A stretch of DNA of 64,000 nt, from NCBI GenBank assembly GCA_025617745.1, contig CM046859.1, positions 558,001 to 622,000 on the forward strand, given 5' to 3'. The notes beneath the pieces were generated by a model. The model ran no database searches, was not told the origin of the DNA, and was given only the letters and a program-made list of their open reading frames with translations. How positions within the stretch are numbered: the first letter of the stretch is position 1; each line of letters begins with the position of its first letter. Below are positions 2,561 through 64,000 of the stretch, in pieces. This DNA is from Heliocidaris erythrogramma (Eukaryota > Echinodermata > Echinoidea > Camarodonta > Echinometridae). Both the position numbers and the translations under genes were made by a program.

Positions 2561-3186
2561 CATCTGGTACTGTAATGTAATGTATGTACTCATGTGATGT
2601 ATATAGGGGTAAGTAGGCTAATGTGTATACTGTGTGGTAAGGAAGGGGGTTGTTTTGTTGTTTGTTTGTTTTTTGGGGGGTTCCTTCTTTTTATCTTTTT
2701 CTTTTTTATATATGACCAGGCCCCACAAAACCACCCAAAAGTCGCACTGTGTGATTTTCAGTTAGAGCTCAATCAATGTGTTTTGGTTGGCATGCATGGT
2801 CAAATTTTAGTTTTGGGTATTTCCTGAAAGAGTATACTTTTTTCTAAGTAATCTAAAATGTGGAGGCACCAAACAATCTAGAAGTGGTATTTTTGACAGC
2901 TTTTTATCAGACTTATGTGTGTCTTCTCTGGATTTTGTTGTATTACTTTTCTTTTTCACGACCCTGAATACTTGTCTCATTTTAATCTCCCATAAATCTC
3001 CCGGAGTAAGTTCTTGCATTGATACTTGTGCACTATGATAAACAGGATATGTCTATGTAGTATGCCAAGTTTTAGGACAATCTGATAATCCCTTCATAGA
3101 AATTTTCATTGAGTTCTAATCCTCCATTTGTCACCTTAGCACAACACTTTGCAAGTCAGAGTGCTTCAATAGACTGCAAACTTTAA
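2561..3186. other. Intervening DNA without recognisable genes
   Basis: The stretch holds T-rich low complexity at 2,655-2,710 and no motif I recognise. It ends at the TTAA that bounds the next transposon. Confidence 0.5.
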
Positions 3187-19931: not shown

Positions 19932-19972
19932 CGTGTATCCTCTAATGTACTACGTACATTAGAGGATACACG
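19932..19972. repeat. Perfect 19 bp hairpin at the left edge of the homogeneous array
   Basis: The arms CGTGTATCCTCTAATGTAC (19,932-19,950) and its complement (19,954-19,972) are separated by TAC. In all other units the right arm exists alone, so the left arm is an inverted duplicate of the unit's first bases. Confidence 0.9.
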
Positions 19973-21902
19973 GGGGAGAAAATAAGACCAAATTTGTATT
20001 TTTAAAACGTATTCCTGTATATTATTGACGAAATAAAATATCAGTGATCAGGTGAAGAGCGAGACATGTTTTTCAGGTTTTGGTAGAGGTCTCTGTACTA
20101 TTCTTGATCATATATCATCCTCTTGGAAATATACCACAGCCAATCAAAAGAGAAGGACAACAGTTTTGACACAATCAATTAGAAGTCTTTATACTGGCAG
20201 ATGAGTATTCTGTATGTGTGATGGTGTGTACGGTCCCTAGGCGAATTCAAGGTTGGGTATTGTCACCAAGTCTTCCTGTCATTCTGGTGTTCTTCACGGA
20301 ATGAACCGTCGCTACCACTGACGGTCTTAGACTCGACTTGATGTATATAATAATTAATGTATTGGTTTCTTATTATCTTCCGTATTTATCATGTGACTAC
20401 TCAGATATGAAGTTTAAGCATGTAACTTTCATATCCATCATGTATTATTTTTATTACTGTGTACAACATAATGCAGAAGTTATATAACAACTCATTCAAA
20501 TATCGATATTTGATTAATTATCAATAATCAGTCTCAAAATCAAGTTTTAAGTAGTTTCAAAGTGAACTTATATACTGTAAAATTCAAAAGTTTAGAACAT
20601 ATTTTGATGTGATTTCTTCACATGATCTTGTGAAAATAATACTCTGAGTTCATGGTTTGAAACAAATTAAAGCCATACATTCCAAACACAACAATACCAT
20701 GGATTATTGAGCTATTATTTACTCAAACGTACATATACGAAATGGATGACATTGTAATAGCACGACATATTTTTCAATCCATTTTTGTACCTTCCGTCAT
20801 TTTACTGCTGTGCCATACACTCTTGGAAAAAATGATGCTTATGGGGTACTCATACTGGTGCCGGATTGAAAAGGTGTCTACAAGTTCCATTAAAAGGACC
20901 TTAGCCATTGAGCTCAGATTTCTCCACCTTTTGTTATGCGTATTAGTCTTTATCATAATCTGTAGATATTATTTAAACATGTCCACGATAATATCTATCT
21001 ACATTCGTCATTTTCAAAATACTTTGGTTTGATACAAATTGTATAAATGTGTTCTATTGCATGTTGTTATAATTTATTGATTTCAGTTACTATGGATATA
21101 ATTCTATTTTTTTTTGGAAGGACGATAAAATATTGCTCAAGAGTAATAATAATAATAATAATATGTCTTGTTTACCCAGGGTAGCCTCATTAGTATTATA
21201 TACTGTTCTCCCTGAGGGCCCTGCAATCATACTATTAGGCTAGCTCTTTGCCAGTGCTCGTGATGAGCACCTTTAAAGGTGTCGATGAAAACCTTTTCAA
21301 AAGGTGCTTAGGGACACCCTAAAAAGTGGCACTGGTGTGGCAAATATAAGCACCTTTTAAAGGTGCTCAAACAAACCTTTTTTCTAAGAGTGTATAATTC
21401 ATGTACTTTATGACAATTCTTGAATAAGGATGATTTTAAAGCTAATTTGAAGCAATTCAAATTGAAATCAAGTATTAATCAAAAAGCAAGAAAGTAACTC
21501 AAGATCAATCAAAGACACAATTAAAAGATGACATGGTTAATATACCGCACAGTATGCATTTAAGGGAAAAAACAGACTTATTTCGTTTCACTATTAGGTA
21601 TACTATCACCACCCTTCACCTCCACACACAAGATCACAATACAAAACATAACTCCTTTGTAATTCATTCTTGCACTTATATTCGAAACCTCGTCCGCATA
21701 GAGAAATAGATAAAGTGAGGACGGAAGTCGGAGGGGGTAACTTTTGAAAAGATGATGAAACGACCCCCATATGATGGCCATCCCACACACTCATTTGCAT
21801 TTACACCACTTGTCTTGCTTATAACTTTCTATGTAACTGTATTGTACCCAACGGGCCTATGGACAATGTTATCCTCGTGTTAGGGCCACTATTTATACTT
21901 GT
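19952..21902 (+). repeat. Homogeneous tandem unit C (1,951 bp)
   Basis: The anchor ACGTACATTAGAGG at 19,952 recurs at 21,903, 23,856 and 25,807. Unit C is almost identical to D and E; visible differences are single bases such as TTTATACTGG against TTTCTACTGG. It contains the 579 bp MITE at 20,816-21,394. The plus frame at 20,742-21,032 (96 codons) and its antisense are repeated in every unit only because the DNA is repeated; no domain is recognised. Confidence 0.95.
20816..21394. mobile_element. 579 bp MITE carried in the array unit
   Basis: Terminal inverted repeats TACACTCTTGGAAAAAA and, at the other end, the complement of TACACTCTTAGAAAAAAGG bound the element. Inside are a SINE 3' piece in minus orientation (21,163-21,235, complement of GGGCCCTCAGGGAGAAC to AACAAGACAT) and short hairpins such as GCACCTTTTAAAGGTGC. 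Units A and B lack it, so it entered before units C-E were amplified. Copies are at 22,767-23,345 and 24,720-25,298, and a broken one at 26,671-27,127. Confidence 0.72.
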
Positions 21903-23855
21903 ACGTACATTAGAGGATACACGGGGGAGAAAATAAGACCAAATTTGTATTTTTAAAACTTATTCCTGTATATTATTGACGAAATAAAATATCAGTGATC
22001 AGCTGAAGAGCGAGACATGTTTTTCAGGTTTTGGTAGAGGTCTCTGTACTATTCTTGATCATATATCATCCTCTTGGAAATATACCACAGCCAATCAAAA
22101 GAGAAGGACAACAGTTTTGACACAATCAATTAGAAGTCTTTCTACTGGCAGATGAGTATTCTGTATGTGTGATGGTGTGTACGGTCCCTAGGCGAATTCA
22201 AGGTTGGGTATTGTCACCAAGTCTTCCTGTCATTCTGGTGTTCTTCACGGAATGAACCGTCGCTACCACTGACGGTCTTAGACTCGACTTGATGTATATA
22301 ATAATTAATGTATTGGTTTCTTATTATCTTCCGTATTTATCATGTGACTACTCAGATATGAAGTTTAAGCATGTAACTTTCATATCCATCATGTATTATT
22401 TTTATTACTGTGTACAACATAATGCAGAAGTTATATAACAACTCATTCAAATATCGATATTTGATTAATTATCAATAATCAGTCTCAAAATCAAGTTTTA
22501 AGTAGTTTCAAAGTGAACTTATATACTGTAAAATTCAAAAGTTTAGAACATATTTTGATGTGATTTCTTCACATGATCTTGTGAAAATAATACTCTGAGT
22601 TCATGGTTTGAAACAAATTAAAGCCATACATTCCAAACACAACAATACCATGGATTATTGAGCTATTATTTACTCAAACGTACATATACGAAATGGATGA
22701 CATTGTAATAGCACGACATATTTTTCAATCCATTTTTGTACCTTTCGTCATTTTACTGCTGTGCCATACACTCTTGGAAAAAATGATGCTTATGGGGTAC
22801 TCATACTGGTGCCGGATTGAAAAGGTGTCTACAAGTTCCATTAAAAGGACCTTAGCCATTGAGCTCAGATTTCTCCACCTTTTGTTATGCGTATTAGTCT
22901 TTATCATAATCTGTAGATATTATTTAAACATGTCCACGATAATATCTATCTACATTCGTCATTTTCAAAATACTTTGGTTTGATACAAATTGTATAAATG
23001 TGTTCTATTGCATGTTGTTATAATTTATTGATTTCAGTTACTATGGATATAATTCTATTTTTTTTGGAAGGACGATAAAATATTGCTCAAGAGTAATAAT
23101 AATAATAATAATATGTCTTGTTTACCCAGGGTAGCCTCATTAGTATTATATACTGTTCTCCCTGAGGGCCCTGCAATCATACTATTAGGCTAGCTCTTTG
23201 CCAGTGCTCGTGATGAGCACCTTTAAAGGTGTCGATGAAAACCTTTTCAAAAGGTGCTTAGGGACACCCTAAAAAGTGGCACTGGTGTGGCAAATATAAG
23301 CACCTTTTAAAGGTGCTCAAACAAACCTTTTTTCTAAGAGTGTATAATTCATGTACTTTATGACAATTCTTGAATAAGGATGATTTTAAAGCTAATTTGA
23401 AGCAATTCAAATTGAAATCAAGTATTAATCAAAAAGCAAGAAAGTAACTCAAGATCAATCAAAGACACAATTAAAAGATGACATGGTTAATATAGCGCGC
23501 AGTATGCATTTAATAAAAAAAATAACAGACATATTTCGTTTCACTATTAGGTATACTATCACCACCCTTCACCTCCACACACAAGATCACAATACAAAAC
23601 ATAACTCCTTTGTAATTCATTCTTGCACTTATATTCGAAACCTCATCCGCATAGAGAAATAGATAAAGTGAGGACGGAAGTCGGAGGGGGTAACTTTTGA
23701 AAAGATGATGAAACGACCCCCATATGATGGCCATCCCACACACTCATTTGCATTTACACCACTTGTCTTGCTTATAACTTTCTATGTAACTGTATTGTAC
23801 CCAACGGGCCTATGGACAATGTTATCCTCGTGTTAGGGCCACTATTTATACTTGT
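21903..23855 (+). repeat. Homogeneous tandem unit D (1,953 bp)
   Basis: It is nearly identical to C and E. A two-base length difference lies in the stretch around 23,510, where this unit reads TTTAATAAAAAAAATAAC and its neighbours TTTAAGGGAAAAAAC, so this part resembles unit A (TTTAATAAAAAAATAAC). It carries the MITE at 22,767-23,345. Confidence 0.95.
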
Positions 23856-25806
23856 ACGTACATTAGAGGATACACGGGGGAGAAAATAAGACCAAATTTG
23901 TATTTTTAAAACTTATTCCTGTATATTATTGACGAAATAAAATATCAGTGATCAGCTGAAGAGCGAGACATGTTTTTCAGGTTTTGGTAGAGGTCTCTGT
24001 ACTATTCTTGATCATATATCATCCTCTTGGAAATATACCACAGCCAATCAAAAGAGAAGGACAACAGTTTTGACACAATCAATTAGAAGTCTTTCTACTG
24101 GCAGATGAGTATTCTGTATGTGTGATGGTGTGTACGGTCCCTAGGCGAATTCAAGGTTGGGTATTGTCACCAAGTCTTCCTGTCATTCTGGTGTTCTTCA
24201 CGGAATGAACCGTCGCTACCACTGACGGTCTTAGACTCGACTTGATGTATATAATAATTAATGTATTGGTTTCTTATTATCTTCCGTATTTATCATGTGA
24301 CTACTCAGATATGAAGTTTAAGCATGTAACTTTCATATCCATCATGTATTATTTTTATTACTGTGTACAACATAATGCAGAAGTTATATAACAACTCATT
24401 CAAATATCGATATTTGATTAATTATCAATAATCAGTCTCAAAATCAAGTTTTAAGTAGTTTCAAAGTGAACTTATATACTGTAAAATTCAAAAGTTTAGA
24501 ACATATTTTGATGTGATTTCTTCACATGATCTTGTGAAAATAATACTCTGAGTTCATGGTTTGAAACAAATTAAAGCCATACATTCCAAACACAACAATA
24601 CCATGGATTATTGAGCTATTATTTACTCAAACGTACATATACGAAATGGATGACATTGTAATAGCACGACATATTTTTCAATCCATTTTTGTACCTTTCG
24701 TCATTTTACTGCTGTGCCATACACTCTTGGAAAAAATGATGCTTATGGGGTACTCATACTGGTGCCGGATTGAAAAGGTGTCTACAAGTTCCATTAAAAG
24801 GACCTTAGCCATTGAGCTCAGATTTCTCCACCTTTTGTTATGCGTATTAGTCTTTATCATAATCTGTAGATATTATTTAAACATGTCCACGATAATATCT
24901 ATCTACATTCGTCATTTTCAAAATACTTTGGTTTGATACAAATTGTATAAATGTGTTCTATTGCATGTTGTTATAATTTATTGATTTCAGTTACTATGGA
25001 TATAATTCTATTTTTTTTGGAAGGACGATAAAATATTGCTCAAGAGTAATAATAATAATAATAATATGTCTTGTTTACCCAGGGTAGCCTCATTAGTATT
25101 ATATACTGTTCTCCCTGAGGGCCCTGCAATCATACTATTAGGCTAGCTCTTTGCCAGTGCTCGTGATGAGCACCTTTAAAGGTGTCGATGAAAACCTTTT
25201 CAAAAGGTGCTTAGGGACACCCTAAAAAGTGGCACTGGTGTGGCAAATATAAGCACCTTTTAAAGGTGCTCAAACAAACCTTTTTTCTAAGAGTGTATAA
25301 TTCATGTACTTTATGACAATTCTTGAATAAGGATGATTTTAAAGCTAATTTGAAGCAATTCAAATTGAAATCAAGTATTAATCAAAAAGCAAGAAAGTAA
25401 CTCAAGATCAATCAAAGACACAATTAAAAGATGACATGGTTAATATACCGCACAGTATGCATTTAAGGGGAAAAAACAGACTTATTTCGTTTCACTATTA
25501 GGTATACTATCACCACCCTTCACCTCCACACACAAGATCACAATACAAAACATAACTCCTTTGTAATTCATTCTTGCACTTATATTCGAAACCTCATCCG
25601 CATAGAGAAATAGATAAAGTGAGGACGGAAGTCGGAGGGGGTAACTTTTGAAAAGATGATGAAACGACCCCCATATGATGGCCATCCCACACACTCATTT
25701 GCATTTACACCACTTGTCTTGCTTATAACTTTCTATGTAACTGTATTGTACCCAACGGGCCTATGGACAATGTTATCCTCGTGTTAGGGCCACTATTTAT
25801 ACTTGT
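23856..25806 (+). repeat. Homogeneous tandem unit E (1,951 bp)
   Basis: It is nearly identical to D except at the TTTAAGGGG variant near 25,465. It carries the MITE at 24,720-25,298. Confidence 0.95.
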
Positions 25807-27560
25807 ACGTACATTAGAGGATACACGGGGGAGAAAATAAGACCAAATTTGTATTTTTAAAACTTATTCCTGTATATTATTGACGAAATAAAATATCAGT
25901 GATCAGCTGAAGAGCGAGACATGTTTTTCAGGTTTTGGTAGAGGTCTCTGTACTATTCTTGATCAAATATCATCCTCTTGGAAATATACCACAGCCAATC
26001 AAAAGCGAAGGACAACAGTTTTGACACAATCAATTTGAAGTCTTTCTCCTGGCAGATGGGTATACTGTATGTGTGACGGTATGTACGGTTCCCTAGGCGA
26101 ATTCAAGGTTGGGTATTGTCACCAAGTCTTCCTGTCATTCTGGTGTTCTTCACGGAATAAAACGTCGCTACCACTGACGGTCTTAGACTCGACTTGATGT
26201 ATACAATAATTAATGTATTGGCTTCTTATTATCTTCCGTATTTATCATGTGACTACTCAGATATGAAGTTTAAGCATGTAACTTTCATATTCATCATGTA
26301 TTATTGTTATTACTGTGTACAACATAATGCAGAAGTTATATTACAACTCATTCAAATATCGAGATTTGATTAATTATCAATAATGAGTCTCAAAATCAAC
26401 TTAAAAGTAGTTTCAAACTGAACTTAAACACTGTAAAGTTCAAAAGTTTAAAACATATTCTGATGTGATTTCTTCTCATGATCTTCTGAAAAAATGCTCT
26501 GAGTTCATGGTTTGAAACAAATTAAAGCCATACATTCCAAACACAACAATACCATGGATTATTGAGCTATTGTTTACCCAAACGTACATATACGAAATGG
26601 ATGACATTGTAATAGCACGACATATTTTTCAATCCATTTTTGTACCTTTCGTCATTTTACTGCTGTGCCATACACTCTTGGAAAAAATGATGCTTATGGG
26701 GTACTCATACTGGTGCCGGATTGAAAAGGTGTCTACAAGTTCCATTAAAAGGACCTCAGCCATTGAGCTCAGATTTCTCCACCTTTTGTTATGCGTATTA
26801 GTCTTTATCATAATCTGTAGATACTATTTAAACATGTCCACGATAATATCTATCTACATTCGTCATTTTCAAAATACTTTGGTTTGATACAAATTGTATA
26901 AATGTGTTCTATTGCATGTTGTTATAATTTATTGATTTCAGTTACTATGGAAATATTATTGTATTTTTTTTGGAAGGACGATAAAATATTGCTCAAGAGT
27001 AATACTACTACTAATAATAATATGTCTTGTTTACCCAGGGTAACCTCGTTAGTATTATATACTGTTCTCCCTGAGGGCCCTGCAATCATACTATTAGGCT
27101 AGCTCTTTGCCAGTGCTCGTGATGAGCACATTTTACTGCTGAATGTTTTAAAATCATAATTGTCATTCTGTTTTGATTGTTCATTTGTATATTCATTGTT
27201 TGTCAGTTCTTCTGTCAATAATTTTTGATTTTATGATATTCCAAAATTGTTGACTTCATCTGATTTGGCTTGATTCTTACGTGAAGAATGGTTGCATGGT
27301 ATGATCTGCCCTTTAGTCATTTTATTTCCTTCCACTCAGTCCTCAAAGTCTTTTAGTTTGATTACACAAAATGAGATAGGTAGGTATATCTTTATACTTG
27401 GAAAGATGATGAAAGAAACTGTGTTTACTGCCTAAAAAGCTTATGTCTTTCTTGCCAAAATATGATTCAGTAAATCAATGACAAAATCGGTATCCAATTG
27501 CTTCCACTGTACATGCATCAATCTTACTGACGTAGAATCCAGTGTAGTAAAATAATAATA
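25807..27560 (+). repeat. Array unit F, mosaic right-edge unit
   Basis: Its first 700 bp have substitutions shared with unit B (AAAACATATTCTGATGTG, TTCTCATGATCTTCTG). The next 460 bp match C-E including part of the MITE. At 27,128 it jumps back to the A/B-type sequence (ATTTTACTGCTGAATG). The phrase ATTTTACTGCTG flanks the MITE-derived part on both sides (26,656 and 27,128). The unit looks like a recombinant between older and younger forms. Confidence 0.8.
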
Positions 27561-33955: not shown

Positions 33956-34137
33956 CCCCTGGACAAACACCCCCTGGATAACCATCCCTAGGATAACCAC
34001 CATCTAGGACAACTACCCCCGAGGACAATTACCTCTAGTAACTAACTACCCCCAAGGCAACCACCCTCTAGGACAAGTACCCCCCGGACAAGTCCCCCCC
34101 CCCCCCCCCCCCCCCCCCCCGACAACTACCCCCTAGG
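33949..34137 (+). repeat. Degenerate minisatellite of about 17-20 bp with a 27 C run
   Basis: CTAGGACAACTACCCCC-like units repeat about ten times with substitutions. The run of 27 C at 34,094-34,120 interrupts it. No coding sense is seen. Confidence 0.8.
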
Positions 34138-43104: not shown

Positions 43105-45131
43105 TAGGTTTTCCCGGCCAATTTCGCACGTTTGTCAGTGTGTTTGACAGAAAGTTCATTCAATTTAGCAAAAATCCTCGTTCAATTTAACATTTCGAAC
43201 AATGAAATCTGCACATGTGCCTTTCGAATTCATAAAAGGGGTCTTCAAATTGACACGTGCTCTATATTCAGTATAATTCGCAAACACCGGTCGAAGGGGT
43301 TATTTCAGTCATTCAGTTTCGTGGATGGGCATCCAAATTCCCAACATTTTCAGTCAAATTACCTCATAGTTTTTATTTCCATTTTAAAAGGTGAGAACAT
43401 ATGTATTTAAATGTGATTTTTGTTTCGGCCACCCACTGTTAAGCAGTAAATAACTCGAATTTGTTGTTCTGTAACGCCCCTCTTCTTTCATACATGCCAT
43501 AAGGCATATATATGCCAGTACGACAGAGCCCCTTCAACTTCTTCGGTACAGTCATGGCAGCACAAGTTAGATACAGGCGCATATCTCAACAAGATAGAGA
43601 AAGACTTATAGAAGCATTTGAGGGACATAACCTTGACTACCTAGAACTGGCCGACAGGCTCGGAATAAAGCGCTCAACGGCCAGATCAATTGTGGCCACA
43701 TATCTCCAGACCGGGAGACGCAACAAGGGGAGGCGAGCGAAACGAGCGAAGATGGATGACGAAATGAGAGCTCGTCTCCAAGCCACTGTAAGCAGTAACC
43801 CCTTAGTCACCCTTGAGCAACTGAAGATAGATCTACGGGCAGCTCTTCCGCAGAAGCCCCCGGTATCCGTCTCTACTATTGCCAGAGCACTTGCCGGAAA
43901 CTCGACGAAACTGGCCGATGATGTCCCAGATGCTAGAAATTCACCGAGAATCCTAGACACGCGCATGGAGTACGCACAGTGGTTTATGGCCGAGGGTGTC
44001 GTTGCACACTGTGTCTACATTGATGAGACCGGCTACAACTTCTGGACCAGACGCTCTTTTGGAAGAGCCCCACGCGGGGTCCCTGCACGTACATGGCCAA
44101 CGCGGTCGGCAGTGCAATGTCACTTTTACAGTTTCAAGTGAGATTGGGCTCGTCCACCACACGAGGGAATCTTTCGAGGCTTTCCTGGCTACCACCGCTC
44201 ATGAATGCGAGAATGTCTTCCCCCCTGATGAGGACGTGTACCTGATTTTAGACAACGCACGTCCTCATGTAAGAGCTCAGCTACCTGGTGATGCAAGCCC
44301 AAGGATTCATTTGAAGTTTCTTCCTCCGTATTCTCCATTTCTCAACTGCGTGGAGACGGCCCATTCTGCGTTTAAGGCAGCCATCAAACGAGATCTGGCC
44401 CGCCCGGAGTTGCAGCAGAGGGTAGGCGACAGAGAAGCAGCACAAAAAGCTGGGGTCAACATGCAGGAGTGGAGAATCAACCTTGTTCAGCAGGCAGCTC
44501 GACGAAATAACGCAAAAGAAAGCCATCCGGTGGTTTAACCACACCAAGACATACCTCCCAAGATGCCTGGCCCGCCAACAAATTGATGGCTAGAACTGAT
44601 CTAAGAACTGTATTCTTTATTCCTAATGATGGTTAGCATTAATGTAACACCCACCCAATGCAAATAATAAAAGACATATGAAAGAAATAATCACGATGTA
44701 AATTGAAACCTCCACACACAATACACCATTGAAAGAAAAGTTGCCAAGATGATACAGGAATAAAGAATAATCCGAAAAAGGGTAGAAGAATAAACGCTTA
44801 AAGACGTCTGATAAATTGACTTAAGTACGTGTTAAATTGGATGCCTAGAAATGAATTCGAATGAACGAGCGCACTATATTTGTGATCACGTGACTACATA
44901 ATTCTAAATTGAATGAACGATTTGCGAATTCATGCTTGTTTAATGAATTTCAGTTGAAAAAGTATTAATTAGAATGAGGTTAAATGTAATCTGAATGCTC
45001 AAAAATTAATTTGAACGAACAAATAATGAAATTAAAATACCGAGCGTGTCCTCTTGGCTAAATTTGGGTAAATTGAATGAATGCTCTATCAAATGGACTG
45101 ACAACAATAAGAAATTGGCCGGGAAAACCTA
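43105..45131 (+). mobile_element. Tc1/mariner-IS630 type DNA transposon, near-complete
   Basis: Terminal inverted repeats TAGGTTTTCCCGGCCAATTT (43,105) and its complement ending at 45,131 are flanked by TA at 43,103-43,104 and 45,132-45,133. The single transposase gene lies in the middle (43,512-44,538). Subterminal sequences on both sides share AATTCGAAT/ATTCGAATG and GAATGAA words with the related element at 47,443-49,829. Total length 2,027 bp, normal for an autonomous member of the superfamily. Confidence 0.92.
43512..44538 (+). pseudogene. Tc1/mariner-IS630 transposase, one frameshift
   Basis: It is a DDE transposase that would cut and paste the surrounding 2.0 kb element. The first frame (43,512-44,141; alternative start 43,554) holds a helix-turn-helix region (RISQQDRERLIEAF to STARSIVATY), a basic linker KGRRAKRAK, a second DNA-binding region and the first catalytic Asp in VYIDETGYNFW. 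The second frame (usable from about 44,090 to the stop at 44,536-44,538) holds the second Asp in YLILDNARPHV and the Glu in LPPYSPFLNCVE, with 33 residues between them. Both halves are otherwise open, so one indel near 44,080-44,100 is the only visible lesion. The summed length, about 340 residues, fits the family. Confidence 0.9.
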
Positions 45132-47526: not shown

Positions 47527-47657
47527 CAAGGCCGTACGCAGAAATTTTTTCCTGGGGGGGCAAGATGATCGCTTTTTATTATTGGATCATGTAAAAGTCT
47601 AAAACCCTATTAAAAAAAAGTATGATTTTGAAATTTCTGGGGGGGCAACTGCCCCCC

Positions 47658-47717
<60 letters not shown>

Positions 47718-60161: not shown

Positions 60162-60409
60162 TTACACCGGACGAATCTTCATCTCAGTCTTCTTGAGAGA
60201 GTAATAATAACCCCGCCAGCCAGACCAGACCACACCCTTGGCATACTCCGTGGTTGTACCAGAGAGATATTGGCCATTAAGGTTGGCAGAATGGCAACTG
60301 CTGTACCACCACGCCCCAGTGAATAATTCTGCACAATTACTAGAACTTTTATCGTTGTCACTGTCTTGAGTAGAGAATTGTTGACCGGACTGAATAGTCA
60401 TACTGTCAA
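60162..60409 (-). CDS. Last exon of a fibrinogen-related domain gene
   Basis: It encodes the C-terminal 82 residues of a fibrinogen globular domain, the secreted or extracellular recognition module of ficolins, tenascins and FREPs. Visible hallmarks are the calcium-site stretch DSDNDKSSSNCAE, the cysteine pair in SSNCAELF and WYSSCHSANLNGQY, the tryptophans GAWWY, and the typical ending YYYSLKKTEMKIRPV before TAA at 60,162. The 5' edge is a good acceptor: a pyrimidine tract, then CCCACTTCCAG at 60,410 upward, giving a phase 1 exon of 248 bp. The frame is intact. The upstream exons, which would lie above 60,410, were not recognised in this window, so the gene either has a long intron or this is an isolated duplicate exon. 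Confidence 0.85.
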
Positions 60410-61845
60410 CTGGAAGTGGGTAAAGAAAGGGAGACGGAGAAATAGGAGTTAGAGAAGAGAGAGAGAGAGAGCGTAAGATTTCTGCGCTCACTGTAATTTG
60501 TACTACTGCTTTTTACCAGCGATACCACCAATTGTCAGAAAACAATCAATTTTGAACGCCCTGACTCAACAATGTACATTATCAGATTTTATCTCTGCCA
60601 CCCTTGCCCCTCTTGACGGACTTTCGACGAGAAAAAAGTGCTCTATTTTCATATAGTTATGAAGTCATCATAAATCAATAATGACAGTTATTATAGTAAT
60701 AATTAAATTGCTCTTGAAACCACACCAAATATATGAGCAACCCAATATTGTACCAGCGTTCTATCAAGCACAACCGGCCGTGCACCTCAATGCGTATGGT
60801 CTAGGACAGATTTCGCAGAAAATCCTTGCGTCACACGAATGGGTCTGCACGGTGTTTTTTTTTCTCAAAGCACGCAGGAGCACATCAGACACAACCAGGC
60901 TTTTGGACATGTCCAACAATATCAGTGCGTGTGGCTATTGTTTTAATCAACGCAAGTGACACGTGCTACATGGTCGTCGCAAGCAACACACGACCTTCGA
61001 ACATCGCATGGGCTTCTTCATGACTAACAATTATGCTATGAAAACAGTAATAATAATGATAAATATAAGAACAACAAAATTTAATTGTTGTGTCCTAGAG
61101 CTCGTACAAAACAACTATAAAGGATGTACTATTAGTATGAATGCGCGATGAGCGGATGGTCCCCAGACGTCTTCCTTATGTCCGTCGGCCCCATTCGTAA
61201 CTTATTTTATGTTGATGAGTTAACCTAAGTGTACTAATCACCTAAAAAATAATTTGTGGGCAGATAAATTGTATAAAATGAACCCGGCCTTCCATGGTTA
61301 ACGGTTAAGCATTACGAGTATTACGGAAATAATGGAAAACGTGAAACCCTCTCGCCCGGAACAAAAATCCGTGTTCGATTCCGTGGGCCCCTTATTCTAT
61401 GCGAGCGCGTACAGGTCATTTCACCAGTCGCTGTAATATTTATTGGGAGTGTATTTCTATTTGCAATATATAGAATCAACATCTAAAGGTCATATTTTGA
61501 ATATAGTATGGCGACATGGAACCCCTAATGGTATCCCAAACTCAACTAGGATTTTAGCAACCCCACAATCTTTCATTTCATCATACTGGCGAGTCCACAA
61601 ACCTTAATCTCAGACTGACAATTCATTCATCAACACCGCCAACTTGGTGTAATTGTAAGTTTGTATATTTTGGCGATTGGCCCACTTTTCAACAATATCC
61701 TTTCCCATGACAGGAAACTTTGAGAATATAATGTCTTGAAAACTACATAAAATCGAATGAAATGCAGACGAACAATACCAACTAAGTTTCATGAATTGCA
61801 CTATCAGAGTTTGTACATAATCGTCAGTATAGTAGACCCTTGTAA
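60410..61845. other. Presumed intron or intergenic DNA upstream of the fibrinogen exon
   Basis: The pyrimidine-rich acceptor context (GA-rich on the plus strand, 60,412-60,475) is followed by sequence with no recognisable exon. Frames at 60,681-61,151 show no domain. Confidence 0.5.
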
Positions 61846-62250
61846 GCTTAACAAAACTAAAGGCAACAGAACAGAATTATCATAAAGTTGGCAACATATA
61901 TCAAAAGGAGTTTTAAGGTCGAAGCAAATATAACTATTATTGCTCAGAACGCCTACACATTACACACGAGACAACATATCTATTTGCTTCGACCTTAAAA
62001 GTCAGGTAATTGTTTACTTTGCTCACTCTTGTTTCTATTGAGTTCCATTTTCGTTATTTCACTTACTCCTGCCGAGAAACATCTCTTCAATTTCACTTAC
62101 TCATGTTGATTTATGTTGCCATCTTTATGATAATATTGTTCTGTTGTCTTTAGTTTTGTTTTGGCGAGTAACACCTTTTCAATTTCATCTATTTCTTTTG
62201 ATTTATGTTGCCAACTTATGATAATTCTGTTGCCTTTAGTTTTGTTAAGT
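61846..62250. repeat. Inverted-repeat segment with a nested 90 bp hairpin
   Basis: CTTAACAAAACTAAAGGCAA...ATCATAA(A)GTTGGCAAC at 61,847-61,895 pairs with its complement at 62,205-62,250. Between them TTTTAAGGTCGAAGCAAATA (61,911) and its inverse (61,980-62,000) form a separate 90 bp hairpin. A partial third copy of the outer arm (GATTTATGTTGCC to TTTAGTTTTGTT) lies at 62,108-62,160. Confidence 0.75.
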
Positions 62251-62289
62251 TGCTCATTATTATTATTTGTTTTATTCTGAGCAAATAAA

Positions 62290-62400: not shown

Positions 62401-62640
62401 ACTCCCCCTTAATCGAAATGGCGTAACTTTTTAACGAAAAGGTTTTGAGCAAAATAACTTGGCTGGAGTGTTCCTACACTTATTGACTAACTTTTCTGTG
62501 AAAATAAGATTAAGTTAGTAAACGAAGAAGCTTGACTGGGGAGGATTTTTTAATTTGTAAACAAATCTTTCGGCATATTACTCCCAGTGTTAAAGATCGT
62601 ACGCTCGATCTGTAATGAAAAACACAAGCCAGAAAAAACT

Positions 62641-62713
62641 GGAACCAGCGGGATTCGAACCTGTCATCTACTGCTTGCCGGGCAGCGACTTAACCACCAG
62701 GCTATTCTGGTTC
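62641..62713 (-). ncRNA. tRNA-like sequence, copy 1
   Basis: It is 73 nt on the minus strand. The A-box-like TAGCCTGGTGGTTA and B box GGTTCGAATCC are intact, and the anticodon arm is a clean 5 bp stem with a CCGGCAA loop. The acceptor stem pairs 6-7 positions depending on register, and the T stem has two A-C mismatches. Position 33 would be C rather than U. It is therefore tRNA-derived and not a sound tRNA gene; a T-run follows at once as a pol III terminator. Confidence 0.6.
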
Positions 62714-62930
62714 ACGGTCAAGTCACAACGAACTAGAATCAAATACCCAAGATCCTCTTCTTTCTGACTCATTAATATTCAAACGGTCCGCCGTAGACAA
62801 TGGTTAGTAAACGAAGAAGCTTGACTGGGGAGGAATTTTTAATTTGTAAACAAATCTTTCGGCATATTACTCCCAGTGTTAAAGATCGTATGCTCGATCT
62901 GTAATGAAAAACACAAGTCAGAAAAAAATT

Positions 62931-63003
62931 GGAACCAGCGGGATTCGAACCTGTCATCTACTGCTTGCCGGGCAGCGACTTAACGACCAGGCTATTCTGG
63001 TTC
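62931..63003 (-). ncRNA. tRNA-like sequence, copy 2
   Basis: It is identical in layout to copy 1, with TGGTCGTTA in place of TGGTGGTTA in the A-box region. The T-run terminator is present. Confidence 0.6.
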
Positions 63004-63100
63004 ACGGTCAAGTCACGACGAACTAGAATCAAATACCCAAGATCCTCTTCTTTCTGACTCATTAATATTCAAACGGTCCGCCCCAGTCAGACTTGACCGT

Positions 63101-63173
63101 GAACCAGAATAGCCTGGTCGTTAAGTCGCTGCCCGGCAAGCAGTAGATGACAGGTTCGAATCCCGCTGGTTCC
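63101..63173 (+). ncRNA. tRNA-like sequence, copy 3
   Basis: This is the first plus-strand copy after the inversion, with the same TGGTCG variant as copy 2, of which it is the mirror. It is followed by AATTTTTTT. Confidence 0.6.
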
Positions 63174-63390
63174 AATTTTTTTCTGACTTGTGTTTTTCAT
63201 TACAGATCGAGCATACGATCTTTAACACTGGGAGTAATATGCCGAAAGATTTGTTTACAAATTAAAAATTCCTCCCCAGTCAAGCTTCTTCGTTTACTAA
63301 CCATTGTCTACGGCGGACCGTTTGAATATTAATGAGTCAGAAAGAAGAGGATCTTGGGTATTTCATTCTAGTTCGTCGTGACTTGACCGT

Positions 63391-63463
63391 GAACCAGAAT
63401 AGCCTGGTGGTTAAGTCGCTGCCCGGCAAGCAGTAGATGACAGGTTCGAATCCCGCTGGTTCC
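63391..63463 (+). ncRNA. tRNA-like sequence, copy 4
   Basis: It has the TGGTGG variant as in copy 1 and is followed by AATTTTTT. Confidence 0.6.
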
Positions 63464-63679
63464 AATTTTTTCTGACTTGTGTTTTTCATTACAGATCGAG
63501 CATACGATCTTTAACACTGGGAGTAATATGCCGAAAGATTTGTTTACAAATTAAAAATTCCTCCCCAGTCAAGCTTCTTCGTTTACTAACCATTGTCTAC
63601 GGCGGACCGTTTGAATATTAATGAGTCAGAAAGAAGACGATCCTGGGTATTTGATTCTAGTTCGTCGTGACTTGACCGT

Positions 63680-63752
63680 GAACCAGAATAGCCTGGTCGT
63701 TAAGTCGCTGCCCGGCAAGCAGTAGATGACAGGTTCGAATCCCGCTGGTTCC
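63680..63752 (+). ncRNA. tRNA-like sequence, copy 5
   Basis: It has the TGGTCG variant, so G and C versions alternate along the plus-strand part. It is followed by AATTTTTT. Confidence 0.6.
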
Positions 63753-63968
63753 AATTTTTTCTGACTTGTGTTTTTCATTACAGATCGAGCATACGATCTT
63801 TAACACTGGGAGTAATATGCCGAAAGATTTGTTTACAAATTAAAAATTCCTCCCCAGTCAAGCTTCTTCGTTTACTAACCATTGTCTACGGCGGACCGTT
63901 TGAATATTAATGAGTCAGAAAGAAGAGGATCTTGGGTATTTCATTCTAGTTCGTCGTGACTTGACCGT

Positions 63969-64000
63969 GAACCAGAATAGCCTGGTGGTTAAGTCGCTGC
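63969..64000 (+). ncRNA. tRNA-like sequence, copy 6 (cut by the window end)
   Basis: Only the first 32 nt are present, with the TGGTGG variant, showing that the array continues. Confidence 0.55.

Follow-up and report, generated by a model that had tools for sequence, protein, structure and literature searches.

What kind of element is the tandem array of approximately 290 bp units that runs to the right end of the 64 kb stretch of DNA analysed here (positions 558,001 to 622,000 of contig CM046859.1; hereafter the window)? A preliminary description placed the array at 62514-64000, where it is indeed present, and offered two explanations, a novel RNA polymerase III (pol III) small-RNA family or a satellite derived from a transfer RNA (tRNA). 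The satellite is better supported, because the tRNA-like core is degenerate, the tandem copies are nearly identical, the plus-oriented half shows a dimeric pattern, the centre carries an inverted duplication and there are published precedents. We found no positive evidence for the small-RNA family, which is less supported because the core has no Rfam match at gathering score and its variation is not significantly rarer than that of the rest of the unit. Our preferred reading, with a probability of about 0.7, is that the array is a tRNA-derived, satellite-like tandem repeat that bears pol III promoter elements.

For its origin, we infer a route in which a tRNA gene copy decayed while keeping its internal type 2 pol III promoter elements and T-run terminator, and in which this copy and its neighbourhood became a unit of approximately 289 bp that was duplicated in tandem. 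Unequal exchange or replication slippage would then have amplified the unit head to tail, at least partly in blocks of two, and a break-repair or template-switch event would have generated a head-to-head inverted duplication of one end.

Structure of the array and its change of orientation

The array, with a period of 289-290 bp, occurs in two orientations. Besides four complete units, it contains three partial ones, namely 211 nt truncated at the left border of the array, a tail of 68 nt, and 43 nt interrupted where the window stops (Table 1). Where at least five full units had been claimed, there are five complete tRNA-like cores (in m2, m1, p1, p2 and p3) but only four full units. In the direction of the cores, the minus half runs from m0 through m1 to m2, which ends at the array border, and the plus half runs from p1 (290 bp) through p2 and p3 (289 bp each) to p4. 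Both half-arrays thus read outward from the centre, head to head, as an inverted duplication of this type would leave them. As the array runs past the window end at 64000, the number of units is a lower bound.

Table 1. Units, cores and motifs of the array, with their positions in the window
Feature	Position	Strand	Description
Unit m2	62514-62724	-	211 nt, unit positions 1-211; left array edge; G-type core
m2 tRNA-like core	62642-62713	-	Range matched by Rfam tRNA-Sec at 19.4 bits (below gathering 47), E 2.4
Unit m1	62725-63014	-	Complete, 290 bp; C-type core; T7 run
m0	63015-63082	-	68-nt tail of another minus-strand unit, unit positions 222-289
Orientation switch	63083-63089	.	Between minus-unit DNA and p1
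Unit p1	63090-63379	+	Complete, 290 bp; C-type core; T7 run
p1 tRNA-like core	63101-63173	+	RF00005 at 63103-63171, 14.1 bits (below gathering 29), E 1.2
p1 B box	63153-63163	+	Exact match to GGTTCGANNCC
p1 T7 run	63176-63182	+	Candidate pol III terminator, unit position 87
Unit p2	63380-63668	+	Complete, 289 bp; G-type core; T6 run
p2 tRNA-like core	63391-63463	+	tRNA-Sec at 63391-63462, 19.4 bits (below gathering 47), E 0.061
Unit p3	63669-63957	+	Complete, 289 bp; C-type core; identical to p1 except T7/T6
Unit p4	63958-64000	+	First 43 nt; G-type; cut by window end

Nine columns vary among the units, in addition to the length of the T-run (T6 or T7), and pairs of units differ at 0-5 of the 211-289 positions compared. 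The alternation of G and C between cores that was noted earlier lies at unit position 30, which is C in m1, p1 and p3 and G in m2, p2 and p4. In the plus half, alternate units are more alike than neighbours, with approximately 1.5 dimer periods visible. With the T7 of p1 set to T6, p1 and p3 are identical across an alignment of 289 positions, while p2 differs from each of them at four columns and p4 is identical to p2 over the 43 nt compared. As these relationships pair every second unit, they support growth of the plus half as two-unit blocks, the mode of amplification originally proposed for the array. In the minus half, column 30 is the sole column seen to alternate. Because m0 and m1 agree at columns 259, 264 and 274, and m2 ends before them, the dimer pattern is not established there.

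Orientation changes once in the array. The inverted arms (62514-63014 and 63090-63590) are long, as first described, but are not identical, matching at 495/501 positions (6 differences). The position given for the flip, 63,052, is the geometric centre of these arms, whereas minus-oriented unit DNA reaches 63082, the plus half starts at 63090 and the real switch falls in the 7 bp between them. The 75-nt loop between the arms is asymmetric and consists of 68 nt of a minus unit and 7 nt of filler. The 9-mer at the junction (63081-63089) corresponds to unit positions 184-192 in plus orientation, a match given with no chance level, and could be a short templated insertion. As T7 is common to the central units m1 and p1 only, and the C/G order is mirrored about the centre, the data support an inverted duplication of the array end as the simplest history. 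A fold-back read would also be expected to give mirrored C/G cores and T7 in both central units, and the inversion could thus be an artefact, of assembly or of a read, in what is a plain head-to-tail array, whichever reading of the units themselves is adopted. However, the differences between the arms weigh against a simple fold-back copy, and the loop holds both part of a minus unit and filler. We therefore consider an artefact quite unlikely.

Inverted repeats also adjoin the left end of the array. An 8-bp inverted repeat found by eye (62486-62493 and 62512-62519, spanning 62486-62519) straddles the array edge at 62514, possibly by chance. Nested inverted repeats at 61847-62251, possibly a small transposon, include perfect 25-nt inverted arms (61847-61871 and 62225-62249) and 62-nt inverted arms that are 89% identical (61850-61911 and 62099-62160). 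A direct repeat of 92 nt (62073-62246) occupies their right side.

The tRNA-like core

An exact B box and an acceptor stem of 7 bp without mismatches are present in each of the five complete cores, and each core is followed two bases later, at unit position 87, by a run of T6 or T7. For the B box and the T-run, this is as the preliminary description had held. The combination of B box, matching stem and T-run was found five times in the window, always within the array, and once in 200 simulated 64-kb windows. The A box, also described as intact in each core, is less clear-cut. At the canonical place (unit position 21) it has one mismatch to the A-box consensus TRGYNNANNNG (computed for the three C-type units and seen by eye for the G-type), and an exact match is found 8 nt downstream of it, at unit position 29, in the two G-type units only, the C variant breaking the match. 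No core contains an internal T-run of 4 or more, and a run of the length found after the core normally ends pol III transcription. Thus, a spacer of approximately 200 bp in each unit would not be transcribed, and a transcript, if made, would end at the T-run and be approximately 80-90 nt long. Judging from these motifs, the promoter elements and terminator may still permit such a transcript, perhaps more from G-type units than from C-type units. In the history proposed above, it would be a tRNA-like RNA that is made weakly or not at all and has no essential role.

When the 64 kb were scanned against Rfam, no match at gathering score was returned. With 101-base pieces as queries, the best match was RF00005 for the C-type core (14.1 bits, E 1.2, gathering 29) and tRNA-Sec for the G-type core (19.4 bits, E 0.061, gathering 47), for which vault RNA (RF00006) scored 12.3 bits, below its gathering score of 34. 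The covariance-model scoring suggested for 63,101-63,173 does place the tRNA family first, but under the gathering score. As a scan of 4 kb at E up to 5 listed only the two complete G-type cores, the C variant lowers tRNA likeness. ARAGORN found no tRNA in the window at default settings, or at 98%, 96% or 95%. At 94% and 92% it called exactly the five cores in the 64 kb, as tRNA-Ala(GGC), at 90% the five cores and one sequence elsewhere (3036-3135), and at 80% it listed 27. Simulations bracketed the 94% threshold, with 100 sequences of 62.5 kb yielding 2 calls at 95% and 49 at 90%.

In tRNAs, U33, a paired T stem and the GG of the D loop are conserved. The anticodon loop of the core, CCGGCAA in the ARAGORN drawing, has C at position 33, and the T-stem pairs are AC, CG, AC, GC and GC, two of the five being A-C mismatches. 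Both deviations from a true tRNA had been recognized at the outset. The tRNA-like fold reported with them is borne out by the acceptor stem and less clearly by free folding, in which the G-type core gave a z of -0.98, with 35/200 shuffles as good, and the C-type core a z of -1.89, with 6/200 shuffles as good and an optimum that is not a cloverleaf. Constrained to a cloverleaf, the G-type core lies 0.9 kcal/mol above its optimum and the C-type core 6.8 kcal/mol, so the two types differ in predicted fold as well as in A-box match. The core is thus only partly tRNA-like in fold, and free folding into a cloverleaf is not convincing. Because of C33, the two T-stem mismatches, the lack of a Rfam match at gathering score and the empty default ARAGORN search, we conclude that the core is not a working tRNA.

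The same results bear on whether the array is a tandem cluster of tRNA genes, either true ones or ones that decayed recently, of the type formed by the tRNA-Cys genes of Arabidopsis, which have units of approximately 0.4 kb. Each unit here does consist of one tRNA-like sequence and a spacer, a layout like that of the Arabidopsis cluster, and ARAGORN supplies the label tRNA-Ala(GGC) at its lowered threshold. Against this stand the default ARAGORN result, two Rfam scores under gathering, C33 and the T-stem mismatches, while the four Arabidopsis reference genes do pass the high-confidence tRNAscan-SE filter (PMC10701932). A cluster of this type is most unlikely, though if the decay were recent it would grade into the satellite that we prefer.

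An array of functional small-RNA genes, arranged like 5S ribosomal DNA, kept alike by concerted evolution and producing one tRNA-like non-coding RNA of 80-90 nt per unit, would also be compatible with descent from a tRNA. It would account for cores that, when complete, always have an intact B box, a closed acceptor stem and a terminator, and that are free of T-runs of at least 4. The four of the nine variable columns that are peculiar to m2 also all fall outside its core. However, every second unit replaces a D-loop G conserved among tRNAs, free folding does not clearly surpass that of shuffled sequences and no Rfam match reaches gathering. Variable sites make up 1/73 of the core and 8/216 of the remainder (p = 0.46), and the candidate explanation of stronger constraint on the core is thus unsupported. 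No function is indicated for the core by these counts, although so few changes give little power. We therefore regard functional genes as decidedly improbable. The more specific proposal, in which a lineage-specific pol III gene forms a 5S-like array with two co-amplified isoforms of an 80-90 nt tRNA-like non-coding RNA that differ in the D-loop G/C and are read outward from the inverted centre, would be more doubtful still. The likelihoods that we attach to the alternatives to a satellite are not strictly exclusive.

The spacer has some structure of its own. That of p2 (63468-63668, 201 nt) folds at -49.2 kcal/mol, with 4/200 shuffles as low, a predicted fold that is suggestive and was one of several tried. 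A 9-bp inverted repeat is found in the spacer at unit positions 90-98 and 245-253.

Comparison with SINEs and described tandem repeats

The head, body, LINE-derived region and tail of a tRNA-headed short interspersed element (SINE) are transcribed together, the LINE being a long interspersed element. The unit has the tRNA-related head with pol III promoter elements, with the reservation made above for the A box, but between this head and any body lies the T-run found in 5/5 cores. As the T-run would halt pol III before any body, the unit is a poor fit to a SINE and is probably not one. Inspection by eye showed no A-rich or simple-repeat tail. The core is flanked by a direct repeat of 7 bp, TGACTTG. 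It was rejected as evidence of a target-site duplication, because at least 7 bases are shared at 813/20,000 random places of the same geometry in the window, which puts it close to chance.

Further copies were sought in the remaining 62.5 kb. None was convincing, either with blastn (word size 7, E up to 10), for which the best E was 0.62 over 23 nt, or with nhmmer run with filters off, for which the best E outside the array was 5.5. Two exact patterns, one taken from the core and one from the body, each had no match in viral contigs, a search that may omit records from the window's own genome, and a 20-mer of the core had no match in literature text.

These results also limit the proposal that a complete tRNA-headed SINE, represented by the 289 bp unit, was amplified in tandem, as in the SINE-derived satellites of squamates. 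The parts of such a SINE are those listed above, and SINE-derived satellites have been published, one with an alternating di/trimeric pattern (PMC10702118). The tRNA-like head, with its B box and A-box-like motifs, and the flanking TGACTTG would fit the proposal. However, the terminator directly after the head, the absence of a convincing copy in the other 62.5 kb, the frequency of comparable flanking 7-mers and the lack of a visible tail do not, and we judge it unlikely.

The closest likenesses in layout are tandem repeats of amphibians. PolIII/TAN (Hirt), in the newt Cynops pyrrhogaster, is a tandem repeat of approximately 360 nt with a tRNA-like sequence, can be transcribed in vitro and had no similar SINE identified (PMC10702118). 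Rana/polIII, in green frogs, has tandem units of approximately 250 nt with a 64-nt tRNA-similar part, has no similarity to known SINEs elsewhere and accounts for up to 10% of some genomes (PMC10702118). The same source judges the link to SINEs inconclusive for PolIII/TAN, OAX, Rana/polIII and Hy/polIII. Like the first and third of these, the array has a tandem unit of a few hundred base pairs (289-290 bp) with one tRNA-like stretch and a B box. The best reading is that the array is, by layout, of the same kind as PolIII/TAN and Rana/polIII, a likeness drawn from their descriptions.

Other systems are less close. OAX, or satellite I, of Xenopus resembles the array, by description, in being a tandem repeat with a tRNA-derived central segment, but unlike that of the array its unit is called too long for a proper satellite (PMC10702118). 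The squamate satellites (sSats) also have tandem units tied to tRNA-related elements, and in some cases, among them that of the glossy snake, these alternate in a di/trimeric pattern, but they come from portions of identified dispersed SINEs (PMC10702118), whereas no dispersed copy was found for the array in 62.5 kb. In the limpet Patella caerulea, the invertebrate tandem repeat PcH-Sat is tied to a SINE2/tRNA-type SINE, but the segment concerned is without boxes (PMC11121367), whereas the unit of the array has an exact B box. The tRNA-Cys cluster on Arabidopsis chromosome 5 resembles the array in having one tRNA per tandem unit of approximately 420 bp, but contains four high-confidence genes in repeats that are 84-94% identical (PMC10701932), while the cores of the array are degenerate and its units differ at no more than five positions. 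The human tRNA repeat at 1q23.3 reportedly has a larger unit of 7.3 kb.

Several points weigh against a tRNA-derived satellite. The Rfam E-values of the cores are weak, and ARAGORN returns nothing at 95% or above and an extra call outside the array at 90%. The units differ so little that there is no covariation and little power in a selection test, and a function can therefore not be dismissed. In the minus half, the three columns shared by m0 and m1 do not alternate. An assembly error at the inverted repeat, improbable as the differences between its arms make it, would remove the inversion. The label satellite itself is based on about five units and the window end and not on a genome-wide copy number, and the precedents named for it are all amphibian and are set beside the array by description.

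If it is such a satellite, the array is probably a further, fairly ordinary case of a kind of tRNA-derived repeat that has already been described. It would be a tidy example of a tRNA-gene fragment, with promoter and terminator, turned tandem repeat, and displays a dimer stage together with an inverted duplication whose junction 9-mer matches the unit's own body. If the host is an invertebrate, the array would also widen the range of this kind of repeat, for which the examples with boxes in PMC10702118 are amphibian.

Other features of the window

A second tandem repeat, with a period of approximately 1.95 kb and at least 4 copies (spacing 1951, 1953 and 1951-1952), is found at 19951-26887. 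Samples of 300 nt from it are 97-100% identical, apart from one of the last copy, at 93%. A near-identical open frame of 123 amino acids lies on the plus strand in each of four copies (at 20661, 22612, 24565 and 26516), and that of the first copy had no Pfam match. Closer to the array, a minus-strand frame at 60162-60512 encodes a Fibrinogen C-terminal domain (Pfam, E 3.3e-29), and its best match by sequence among solved structures is Fibrinogen C domain-containing protein 1 (E 4.1e-29). Two overlapping frames at 43503-44538, the first matching HTH_32 just under the cut-off and the second DDE_3 above it, are presumably a broken transposase of the Tc1/mariner type. Finally, the window contains two C-homopolymers, one of 65 bases with a 95% match at 47652-47716 and another of 27 C at 34094-34120.
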